From Novosphingobium jiangmenense (lineage in GTDB: Bacteria > Pseudomonadota > Alphaproteobacteria > Sphingomonadales > Sphingomonadaceae), in NCBI RefSeq assembly GCF_015694345.1, contig NZ_JADQDC010000004.1:62001-126000 (forward strand): a stretch of DNA of 64,000 nucleotides, given 5' to 3'. The position numbers were made by a program, and so were the translations under genes. Positions 39,665-42,006 of the stretch are shown here, piece after piece (positions within the stretch are counted from its first letter, which is position 1; each line of letters begins with the position of its first letter). The notes beneath the pieces are model-generated. The model saw only the letters and a program-made list of their open reading frames with translations. It did no database searches and was not told the DNA's origin.

Positions 39665-39804
39665 GGGTCAAGCCTCCTTGATCTGATGACAAGGTTACTT
39701 GACCATTCTACGCGCCATGTCAAGCGTCATTGTCATCATGCCAATGGTGCTTGACCTGATAGACCTAATGACTCTGCCACGGTTCCGCGCTAGAAGCGCA
39801 AGCG
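39665..39804. promoter_or_regulatory. Divergent control region with clustered TTGAC motifs
   Basis: 140 bases between the XRE module and the thrS leader. It contains at least four TTGAC/GTCAA occurrences in both orientations (for example around 39666, 39699, 39719 and 39750). The inverted pair at 39699-39725 is CTTGAC...GTCAAG. They may serve as -35 boxes and as half-sites for the module's own XRE regulator. Confidence 0.4.
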
Positions 39805-39873
39805 ATGGCCGACCGTTGCACCAGCACTACAACCACTACCCCCGCGAGCCGGGGGCGGTCGCTGCTGGGCTAA
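39805..39873 (+). CDS. Threonine-rich leader peptide of thrS
   Basis: A 22-codon frame from ATG 39805 to TAA 39871-39873 starting MADRCTS and containing six Thr codons within a seven-codon run (residues 6-12), followed by PASRGRSLLG. The Thr codons are three ACC, two ACT and one ACA; the last two types are rare in a genome this GC-rich. It ends 138 bases upstream of thrS. A weak AGAAG site lies nine bases before the ATG. It looks like a ribosome-stalling sensor of charged tRNA-Thr. Confidence 0.75.
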   Translation: MADRCTSTTTTTPASRGRSLLG

Positions 39874-39881
39874 GTCCTGCC

Positions 39882-39920
39882 GCGATGCCGCCGCCCGGTT
39901 CGGGCGGCCTTGCGCATCGC
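39882..39920 (+). promoter_or_regulatory. Attenuator-type hairpin in the thrS leader
   Basis: Nested stems: outer GCGATGC/GCATCGC (39882-39888, 39914-39920) and inner GCCGCCCG/CGGGCGGC (39890-39897, 39901-39908, loop GTT). A GGGCGG at 39853-39858, inside the leader peptide frame, can pair instead with CCGCCC at 39891-39896 and would break the hairpin. In turn GGGGG at 39851-39855 can pair with CCCCC at 39839-39843. This is the 1:2, 2:3, 3:4 logic of attenuators. There is no clear T-run, so transcription termination may need Rho or not occur. Confidence 0.6.
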
Positions 39921-39959
39921 CTCCCGAACCGACCGAATTGCCTGATGCGCGCCCTTCCG

Positions 39960-39991
39960 GTGGCGGCGCTCCTGTGCCAAAGCGCTGCCAC
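39960..39991 (+). promoter_or_regulatory. Second leader hairpin upstream of thrS
   Basis: GTGGCGGCGCT (39960-39970) pairs with AGCGCTGCCAC (39981-39991), an 11-bp stem with one G.U and a 10-base loop, about ten bases before the GAGAG ribosome site of thrS. It could influence translation initiation or mRNA stability. Confidence 0.5.
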
Positions 39992-40011
39992 GAGATTGCA
40001 GAGAGACCCGC

Positions 40012-42006
40012 ATGTCCGAGTTGCTGAAGATCACCCTGCCCGATGGTTCCGTGCGCGAGGTTGCGCCGGGCAGCACTCCGGCCGACATCGCCGCCGCAAT
40101 CGGCCCGGGCCTTGCCAAGGCGGCACTGGCGGCGAAGGTCGATGGCGAGCTGGTCGACCTTTCGCGGCCCTTCACCGCCGATGCGCAACTGGCGCTGGTG
40201 ACGGCGAAGGACGAGGCCGAGGCGCTGGACCTGGCGCGGCATGACTATGCGCACGTGCTGGCAGAAGCGGTGCAGGCGCTGTTTCCGGGGACGCAGATCA
40301 CCTTCGGGCCGAGCACGGACGACGGCTTCTACTATGACTTCGCACCGAAGGACCGCCCGTTCACCGACGAGGACCTGCCGGCGATCGAGGCGGAGATGCG
40401 CAAGATCATCGCCGCCAACAAGCCGCTGCGCCGCGAGGTGTGGAGCCGCGAACAGCTGATCAGCCGCTGGAAGCAGCAGGGCGAGAGCTTCAAGGCCGAA
40501 TGGGCGGCGGAACTGCCGGGCGACGAACCGCTGACGGTCTACTGGTCGGGCGATGACTGGCTCGACATGTGCCGCGGGCCGCACCTGCCCTCGACCGGTA
40601 AGCTCGATCCGGCGGCGTTCAAGCTGACGCGCGTTTCGGGGGCCTACTGGCGCGGCGACCAGAAGAACGCGATGCTCAGCCGCGTCTATGGCACCGGCTG
40701 GCTCAACAAGAAGCAGCTCGATGCGCACCTGACGCGGCTGGAAGAAGCGGCCAAGCGCGATCACCGCAAGCTCGGCAACGAGATGGACCTGTTCCATCTC
40801 CAGCAGGAAGCCCACGGATCGGTGTTCTGGCACCCCAAGGGCTACCTGATCTGGCGCGAGCTGGAAGCCTACATGCGCCGCGCCATCGACGGCGCGGGCT
40901 ATCGCGAAGTGAAGACGCCGCAGGTCATGGACGCGCGCCAGTGGGAGCAGTCCGGACACTGGGGCAAGTATCGCGAGAACATGTTCGTCATCCCCGACGA
41001 GGTGCCGAACGTCGAGGATGAGGGCCCGATCGTCTCCAACGATGCCGAGTGGATGGCGCTGAAGCCGATGAATTGCCCGGCGCACGTGCTGATCTTCCGG
41101 CAGGGCATCAAGTCCTACCGCGAACTGCCGCTGCGCCTCTACGAGAACGGCTGCTGCCACCGCAACGAACCGCACGGCGCGCTCCATGGCCTGATGCGCG
41201 TACGCCAGTTCACGCAGGACGACGCGCACATCTTCTGCCGCGAAGACCAGATCGTGTCCGAAGTGCAGGCGTTCTGCGAACTGGCCGACCGCATCTACAA
41301 GCACTTCGGCTTCACCTACTCGATCAAGCTCGCGCTGCGCCCGGAAAAGCGCTTCGGCACCGAGGAGATGTGGGACAAGGCCGAGGCCGAACTGCGCGCC
41401 GCCGTGGTCCGCGCCGGCCTTGCCACCGAGGAATACGGCTGGGAGGAACTGCCGGGCGAAGGTGCGTTCTATGCGCCCAAGCTGGAATGGCACCTGACCG
41501 ATGCAATCGGCCGCACTTGGCAGGTGGGCACGATCCAGTCCGACCGCGTCCTGCCCGAGCGCCTCGACGCCACCTACATCGGCGAGGATGGCGAGAAGCA
41601 CCGCCCGGTCATGCTGCACCGCGCGATCTTCGGCTCCTACGAACGCTTCATCGGTATCCTGATCGAGCACTTTGCCGGTCGCCTGCCGGCGTGGCTGGCG
41701 CCGGTGCAGGCCGTGGTCGCCACCATCGTTTCGGACGCTGACGACTATGCCAGGGATGCGCTGGCCAAGCTGAAGGCAGCGGGGATCCGTGCCGAGACCG
41801 ACCTGCGCAACGAGAAGATCAACTACAAGGTGCGCGAACACTCGCTGCAGAAGGTCCCCTACCTGCTGGTGGTGGGCAAGCGCGAGGCCGAGGAAGGCAC
41901 CGTGGCGATCCGCACCCTGGGCGAACAGCACCAGAAGGTGATGTCGCTGGACGAGGCGATTGCCCTGCTCAAGGGCGAGGCAACGCCGCCGGATCTGCGG
42001 AGCTGA
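40012..42006 (+). CDS. thrS: Threonyl-tRNA synthetase
   Basis: A 664-residue class II synthetase charging tRNA-Thr. It has an N-terminal TGS domain (residues 1-62), an editing (SAD) domain including HDYAHVLAEAVQALFPGTQ and YWSGDDWLDMCRGPHLPSTG, the catalytic core with motif 2 (CCHRNEPHGALHGLMRVRQFTQDDAH) and zinc ligands (MNCPAH, the His in this stretch and a later His), and a C-terminal anticodon-binding domain. It is complete. The 200-base leader contains a Thr-rich peptide and alternative hairpins, suggesting regulation by threonyl-tRNA level. Confidence 0.97.
   Translation: MSELLKITLPDGSVREVAPGSTPADIAAAIGPGLAKAALAAKVDGELVDLSRPFTADAQLALVTAKDEAEALDLARHDYAHVLAEAVQALFPGTQITFGPSTDDGFYYDFAPKDRPFTDEDLPAIEAEMRKIIAANKPLRREVWSREQLISRWKQQGESFKAEWAAELPGDEPLTVYWSGDDWLDMCRGPHLPSTGKLDPAAFKLTRVSGAYWRGDQKNAMLSRVYGTGWLNKKQLDAHLTRLEEAAKRDHRKLGNEMDLFHLQQEAHGSVFWHPKGYLIWRELEAYMRRAIDGAGYREVKTPQVMDARQWEQSGHWGKYRENMFVIPDEVPNVEDEGPIVSNDAEWMALKPMNCPAHVLIFRQGIKSYRELPLRLYENGCCHRNEPHGALHGLMRVRQFTQDDAHIFCREDQIVSEVQAFCELADRIYKHFGFTYSIKLALRPEKRFGTEEMWDKAEAELRAAVVRAGLATEEYGWEELPGEGAFYAPKLEWHLTDAIGRTWQVGTIQSDRVLPERLDATYIGEDGEKHRPVMLHRAIFGSYERFIGILIEHFAGRLPAWLAPVQAVVATIVSDADDYARDALAKLKAAGIRAETDLRNEKINYKVREHSLQKVPYLLVVGKREAEEGTVAIRTLGEQHQKVMSLDEAIALLKGEATPPDLRS

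Follow-up and report, generated by a model that had tools for sequence, protein, structure and literature searches.

A Thr-rich leader and alternative RNA helices upstream of thrS in Novosphingobium and relatives: a candidate ribosome-mediated attenuator

The thrS locus and its promoter-like elements

In the window (the whole 64,000-nucleotide stretch of Novosphingobium jiangmenense DNA that was analyzed), the gene for threonine--tRNA ligase is preceded by a short Thr-rich open reading frame (ORF) and by several segments that can pair with one another in alternative ways (Table 1). A sequence-only reading of this DNA had pointed to the 22-codon frame with six Thr codons in a run of seven, which is present as claimed and which is the only ORF on either strand of the window to hold at least five Thr within eight codons when the last 60 codons of each ORF are scanned. 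That reading had also called the codons ACT and ACA uncommon. Both are indeed rare among the Thr codons of seven window genes (10 and 5 of 98, respectively), but over 64 unique leaders only ACT is enriched (102 of 441 Thr codons), whereas ACA is not (26 of 441). The leader gave no Rfam match over the gathering score (the best E value was 2.3, with unrelated families, and Thr_leader was not listed), and the T-box model gave no match at its gathering score. The sole Rfam match over threshold in the window was a tRNA gene at positions 59-132 of the minus strand.

Table 1. Features of the thrS leader region (positions in the window; z, score of own versus foreign helix partners)
Feature	Position	Strand	Remarks
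P1 -35-like hexamer ATGACT	39768-39773	+	predicted from aligned leaders
P1 -10-like hexamer TAGAAG (GCTAnA type)	39791-39796	+	17 nt 3' of the -35; predicted
Leader ORF	39805-39873	+	ATG at 39805, 22 codons, TAA at 39871-39873; six Thr codons in seven; peptide MADRCTSTTTTTPASRGRSLLG
Segment 1	39839-39844	+	pairs with segment 2 (z 4.0); begins inside the last Thr codon
Segment 2	39850-39858	+	pairs with 1 or with 3 (2:3, z 5.5)
GCGATGC	39882-39888	+	can lengthen hairpin 3:4 via 39914-39920; not a conserved feature
Segment 3	39890-39897	+	pairs with 2 or with 4 (3:4, z 3.9)
Segment i	39896-39904	+	spans the loop of hairpin 3:4 and some of each arm; partner k (z 9.9), outer pairs weaker
Segment 4	39901-39908	+	3' arm of terminator-like hairpin 3:4
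Segment j	39912-39918	+	pairs with l (z 8.5)
Segment k (CCCGAACCG)	39923-39931	+	within C-rich stretch; pairs with i
Segment l	39944-39950	+	pairs with j
Putative second promoter P2 (TTCCGG, 16 nt, CCAAAG)	39955-39982	+	downstream of the switch; by-eye pattern
Likely thrS Shine-Dalgarno AGAGAG	40000-40005	+	by eye
thrS, threonine--tRNA ligase	40012-42006	+	TIGR00418, 649 bits (cut-off 384)

A promoter, P1, is predicted just upstream of the leader ORF. Across the aligned leaders, the TGAC positions of its -35 hexamer are held at 95% (T), 98% (G), 82% (A), and 86% (C), and 65 of the 68 unique leaders have a CTA with its T 12-16 nt 5' of an in-frame start, together with TGAC at -35 spacing; by comparison, 7.5% of random positions have a CTA at that distance, although the leaders alone had a choice of in-frame starts. 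In 59 of these 65 leaders the start codon follows the -10 hexamer after 6-8 nt (8 nt in the window), a short spacing which suggests that the leader mRNA is probably leaderless, with its 5' end at the AUG or within about 2 nt of it. A leaderless transcript has been described for trpL of Sinorhizobium meliloti (PMC7298713).

The conserved stretch between segment l and thrS is a probable candidate for a second promoter, P2, which probably supplies a basal level of thrS. A P2-like pattern was found no more than 130 nt from thrS in 30 of 50 congeners with a leader and 13 of 40 without, and in none of 86 control stretches farther upstream, the pattern being a loose one made by eye from these same sequences. 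Among leader-less congeners, the P2-like stretch is whole in L006, L007, L015, and L023, is represented by its downstream half in L008 and L010, and is absent from others, such as L026, L028, L035, and L038-L040. Two leader-less loci (L007 and L047) retain an l-like GACGCC beside the promoter-like stretch, which may be a remnant of the leader or a sign of some other role for l.

Distribution and coding constraint of the Thr leader

The occurrence of the leader was surveyed in congeners (99 genomes searched, of which 95 had a thrS match and 90 were fetched) and in the best 80 of at least 591 other stretches from GTDB species genomes, some species being shared between the two sets. A leader was called when at least four Thr fell within eight codons and the start lay no more than 260 nt from thrS; L147 (286 nt) was added by hand, and L045, with 101 nt of upstream sequence only, was counted as lacking a leader. 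By these rules a Thr-run leader stands before thrS in 50 of the 90 congeners and in 23 of the best 80 other loci, with hosts in Novosphingobium, Croceicoccus, Altererythrobacter, Erythrobacter, Pelagerythrobacter, Blastomonas, Pacificimonas, and one Sphingopyxis. No leader was detected at the Sphingomonas and Sphingobium loci among the best 80 of at least 591. The conservation proposed as a check by the sequence-only reading is thus seen in many genera, though the leader is missing from 40 of the 90 fetched congeners.

After removal of L091 and L093 (odd or truncated) and of identical rows, 65 of the 73 leader loci were left, and a 93% identity filter reduced them to 57. The first alignment (A1) holds 52 of these 57, as L021, L022, L090, L096, and L168 were omitted by hand for loop insertions or divergence. 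The second alignment (A2) has 80 rows, none from the genus of the window; it was fitted to helices 3:4 and j:l and not to 1:2, 2:3, or i:k, and its independence from A1 is incomplete, as L246 is probably the same strain as L105.

Comparison shows that the Thr run is under constraint as coding sequence. The four codons that end the run encode Thr in 49, 49, 51, and 51 of the 52 rows of A1 and in 75, 74, 77, and 74 of the 80 rows of A2, and in both alignments the third base varies while the first and second are held at every codon of the run except the last. Such variation with Thr kept points to a constraint on threonine rather than on the bases, and an open frame with a start and a stop recurs among relatives. 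A chance ORF was rejected on the basis of this third-base pattern and of the unique Thr density in the window.

At E<=0.01, a covariance model of the element, R1, had matches in 150 of 396 Sphingomonadales genomes, including the one from which the window comes. At E<1e-5 there were 139 of 396, all in the family of the window, and some of these 139 had supplied the sequences of the model. The 11 genomes with weaker matches (best E >1e-5) comprise two plausible members (L286 and L287) and others whose matches probably arose by chance. In a class-wide sample R1 matched 7 of 289 genomes, three of them already-seen family members and four outside the family (best 8.8e-5). The occurrence of the element outside the family was rejected: loci L203-L207, which represent the four outside matches plus a second match inside the family (G117), had neither thrS (tblastn) nor an ORF with more than three Thr in eight codons within the 3 kb taken for each, and the L203 match overlies an ORF on the opposite strand.

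In all 30 loci listed from the Sphingomonadales search thrS is the next gene after the R1 match, and among a further 80 R1 loci from other genera of the family it is next in 74, 72 of which reach four Thr in eight codons, and comes after one small gene in 6. In six genomes (L288-L293), the Thr leader is separated from thrS by a gene of about 165 residues, which is encoded on the same strand and weakly resembles RNase AS/Rv2179c below family cut-offs. Leader, inserted gene, and thrS apparently form an operon there, an arrangement that fits control at the operon level.

Mapped onto a ThrRS tree of 110 proteins, the distribution of the leader requires no fewer than 14 gains or losses, 9 of them forced by well supported branches, which, together with the 40 of 90 congeners that do without it, implies that the leader is dispensable. 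The simplest reading is old presence and repeated loss, because the same RNA occurs in distant genera; horizontal transfer may also have contributed. One member of the tree, L060 (titled Actinobacteria bacterium 21-64-8), has a ThrRS that groups with Novosphingobium and a Sphingomonas and is probably a mislabelled or mixed bin.

Alternative helices and their response to a placed ribosome

Three pairings had been proposed from the window alone and all exist in its sequence, the first extending by one pair: 1:2 joins CCCCCG (39839-39844) with CGGGGG (39850-39855), 2:3 joins GGGCGG (39853-39858) with CCGCCC (39891-39896), and 3:4 joins GCCGCCCG (39890-39897) with CGGGCGGC (39901-39908). The fold of the window sequence at 39795-40015 is not unusual when taken alone (z -1.15), so the support comes from comparison among homologues. 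The covariation check suggested for these stems gave comparative support for all three in two alignments and in a foreign-partner control, and two further helices, i:k and j:l, emerged which the sequence-only reading had missed, along with the probable leaderless promoter and the probable second promoter, while it was right about the element itself. Strand i overlaps the loop and parts of the arms of hairpin 3:4, so that i:k and 3:4 are mutually exclusive. Helices i:k and j:l cross and would form a pseudoknot if both were present together, and we infer that they may form simultaneously. Judged from its homologues, the Thr leader RNA looks like a five-segment switch.

In the foreign-partner control, the helix partner of each A1 sequence was compared with partners taken from other sequences, which gave z values from 3.9 (3:4) to 9.9 (i:k) for the five helices (Table 1) and from -2.0 to -0.3 for five unrelated control pairings. 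A de novo covariation scan of the 52 leaders ranked j:l first and 3:4 next, followed by two short pairings outside the model mixed with i:k and 2:3. When pairs of sequence windows between the leader and the thrS start were scanned (32 of the 65 sequences), i:k came top (z 8.0) and j:l second (z 5.4), with 3:4, 1:2, and 2:3 at z 3.4-4.1 among other pairings of like height.

The de novo scan of the second alignment also placed j:l first and 3:4 second, these being the helices to which A2 was fitted and whose counts are favored by it; all seven pairs of j:l have changes on both sides. Helix i:k, to which A2 was not fitted, has ten pairs with high raw covariation and 86% pairing, its outer pairs being weaker (76.8% paired). 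For the OFF set of helices (1:2, 3:4, and j:l) 93.3% of cells are paired, against at most 52.2% in slid versions, and for the ON set (part of 2:3, i:k, and j:l) 89.9%, against at most 53.6%. Two-sided changes number 125 for the OFF set (31.0 in shuffles) and 128 for the ON set (43.3 in shuffles), and none of 500 shuffles matched either structure on all five measures, although the shuffle statistics ignore relatedness and overstate significance, a fault from which the slid and foreign controls suffer less. One score counts against the model: the penalized score in A2 is higher for segment 2 with k (0.76) than for 2:3 (0.19) and i:k (0.04). The pairing of 2 with k was rejected, as it has no own-versus-foreign support in A1 (z -1.6). 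The extension of hairpin 3:4 through 39882-39888 and 39914-39920 was also set aside; it can form in the window and is unsupported over the homologues (z 1.3).

The footprint of a ribosome has its edge 15 nt from the P-site codon. A ribosome with this footprint was placed at chosen codons of the leader, and the uncovered RNA was folded in an equilibrium calculation, which takes account neither of the order in which the RNA is transcribed nor of the pseudoknot. When the ribosome sits on the stop codon, 3:4 has a probability above 0.5 in 36 of 52 leaders (0.98 in the window) and stays below 0.5 in the other 16. A stall at the third-last Thr gives 2:3 in 31 of 52 and 3:4 in 9 (2:3 at 0.99 in the window), and a stall at the second-last Thr gives 29 and 11 (0.54 and 0.40 in the window). 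At the very last Thr, 2:3 exceeds 0.5 in 19 of 52 and 3:4 in 21; in the window both are low there (0.17 and 0.12) and i:k is dominant (0.88). When the ribosome stalls inside the run, the modeled switch would therefore go in the right direction in the majority of homologues, with exceptions; at the last codon it would become blurred. The ribosome-free fold has 2:3 in 31 of 52 (0.99 in the window) and 3:4 in 10, so termination is not predicted at equilibrium for an untranslated leader.

Proposed mechanism, rival explanations, and known systems

A short ORF of cognate codons directly before thrS and the mutually exclusive helices 1:2, 2:3, and 3:4 are what is expected of an attenuator, and the element is very probably a ribosome-mediated attenuator of thrS. 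This interpretation, already offered by the sequence-only reading, is supported by conservation, by the covariation of its three stems, and by folding with a placed ribosome in the majority of homologues. Transcription from P1 would probably start at or beside the AUG of the leader ORF. With ample charged tRNA-Thr, the ribosome would reach the stop codon, segment 3 would pair with 4, and transcription would end before thrS. With charged tRNA-Thr in short supply, the ribosome would halt on the last Thr codons and cover segment 1, so that segment 2 would capture 3; the freed strand i could then form i:k alongside j:l, and RNA polymerase would continue into thrS. The promoter, the stalling, the termination, and the response to threonine are thus steps that we infer from the arrangement of the element.

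How transcription would stop is less evident. The absence of a clear T-run after the last hairpin, acknowledged earlier as a weakness, is confirmed: at most 4 T occur in the 8 nt following 3:4 (mean 1.7, n=52; mean 2.3 after l), and the terminator scan and T counts together found a hairpin and no U-tract at the leader. T-run terminators are not enriched in 20 kb of the window (6 found versus 12.6 in shuffles), so the absence of one at the thrS leader says little. Sites of Rho action have been described as unstructured, rich in YC, and high in C:G (PMC12121999). The stretch from j to l, which holds k, is 40% C and 15% G with C exceeding G in 52 of 52 leaders, a composition expected of a candidate Rho site, though the stretch is short (mean only 26 nt). 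Rho acting on a single-stranded C-rich k region and a U-poor intrinsic terminator appear about equally likely as the stop mechanism. A more specific and rather speculative proposal is that the k strand, and not a terminator hairpin, decides the outcome: 3:4 would expose k to Rho when threonine is plentiful, the pseudoknot of i:k and j:l would hide it during starvation, and the element would be old within the family and repeatedly lost since the second promoter makes the attenuator dispensable. If this were true, the state of a synthetase attenuator would be read by Rho.

The lack of a U-tract is also compatible with translational control, in which the leader ribosome would alter access to the thrS ribosome-binding site and not transcription. 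By eye, l lies near the start of the inserted gene in the six loci that have one, where j:l could hide the ribosome-binding site of that gene, and the scan of window pairs gave two pairings near the thrS start: two windows around the thrS ribosome-binding site (z 4.9, own score 11.6) and k with the thrS start (z 3.4, own score 10.3). Both are short pairings with low own scores, however, and the former joins overlapping windows. No switch helix reaches the thrS ribosome-binding site with support like that of i:k or j:l (32 of the 65 sequences), and in the window l ends 61 nt 5' of the thrS start with promoter-like sequence in between; translational control is therefore considered unlikely.

In the E. 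coli type of operator, ThrRS binds tRNA-Thr-like hairpins near the ribosome-binding site. Similar autoregulation, possibly in addition to the attenuator, could be imagined for the conserved stretch at about 39955-39990, which includes a conserved TGTGCCA and has UGU in a possible loop. The stretch resembles a promoter, 13 of the 40 congeners that lack the leader show a similar pattern, and the helix scored z 2.5 only; the operator reading of this stretch was set aside in favor of a promoter on these grounds. As autoregulation would moreover leave the Thr codons unexplained, we regard it as quite improbable. Least credible of all is a structured RNA whose helix sequences would have given rise to the Thr run incidentally. 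In favor of this idea, the run is rich in C and A, segment 1 is in contact with its last codon, and the run paired with the leader end at z 3.0, but an incidental run would not account for the variable third positions at all run codons but the last, nor for the recurring open frame. A ribosome-mediated attenuator is thus the preferred reading.

In E. coli, the thrL leader of thrABC senses Thr codons and controls biosynthesis, the thrL and pheST attenuators end in U-tract terminators, and textbook control of thrS operates in other modes than leader-peptide attenuation. The idea of a Thr leader before thrS is not wholly new, since a Thr leader peptide, thrL, has been proposed before thrS of Streptomyces lividans (PMC8079986). 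According to its description, that leader resembles the present one in having a leader peptide, a leaderless transcript, and one hairpin without U-rich sequence, the authors leaving termination unclear; it differs in having two Thr codons in 18 residues and in belonging to an unrelated phylum, and alternative helices and covariation are not among the features described for it (PMC8079986). In Rhodobacterales, the uORFC-8-2 motif of cysS is likewise an alphaproteobacterial cognate-codon leader before a synthetase gene and a proposed attenuator, but its two tandem Cys codons form part of a stem, the motif ends with a U-run, and its description includes no five-segment switch (PMC8632094). The LEU element of leuA in Actinobacteria shares a cognate-codon run, a possible pseudoknot, an alternative structure, and the lack of other attenuator parts; its Leu codons are described as pairing with a Shine-Dalgarno box, whereas no such pairing was found at the thrS leader (PMC1262725). 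The same source names the pheST attenuator, which is similar in that a synthetase operon is under classical attenuation (PMC1262725). Finally, peTrpL/rnTrpL of S. meliloti is an alphaproteobacterial leader whose transcript starts at the ATG and which acts by cognate-codon attenuation, while it serves a Trp biosynthesis gene and is drawn with an ordinary terminator hairpin (PMC7298713).

Searches of the open-licence literature on thrS attenuation, synthetase attenuation, Alphaproteobacteria, Sphingomonadales, Novosphingobium, and Sphingomonas turned up no description of the sphingomonad thrS leader element, and the main text of PMC2965389 does not contain the word thrS. The element matches none of the above systems, as far as they are described, nor any Rfam family, which suggests a distinct form of ribosome-mediated attenuation. 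It is a clear candidate for the way in which Novosphingobium, Erythrobacter, and their relatives control an essential synthetase gene. The Streptomyces leader was the one other proposed thrS leader peptide found, and the sphingomonad one has wide comparative support. With two extra covarying helices and a missing U-tract, it is also a natural case for studying how attenuation ends transcription in GC-rich bacteria, and R1 is a usable model for searching for the element. In the same genome, no convincing cognate-codon leader was detected at the thresholds used within about 1.5 kb on each side of the ilvB, homoserine dehydrogenase, trpE, pheS, and prephenate dehydratase genes (L294-L300); judged on those five genes, the thrS leader may be unusual within this genome.

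Several variants of the locus were observed. In L091 (Pacificimonas flava), the hairpin and the k and l segments are similar, while the leader is longer and its Thr run is broken (TPTTSTS), and in L090 (Blastomonas) the i:k pairing is unclear by eye. An extra GCCCACATGC...GCATGGGGC inverted repeat lies just 5' of the thrS ribosome-binding site in L117, L129, L134, and L147, with a variant of it in L127 and L130. In L229 and L237, k and l are separated by the insertion of a long GC-rich inverted repeat, after which comes AACGCC, which could serve as l.
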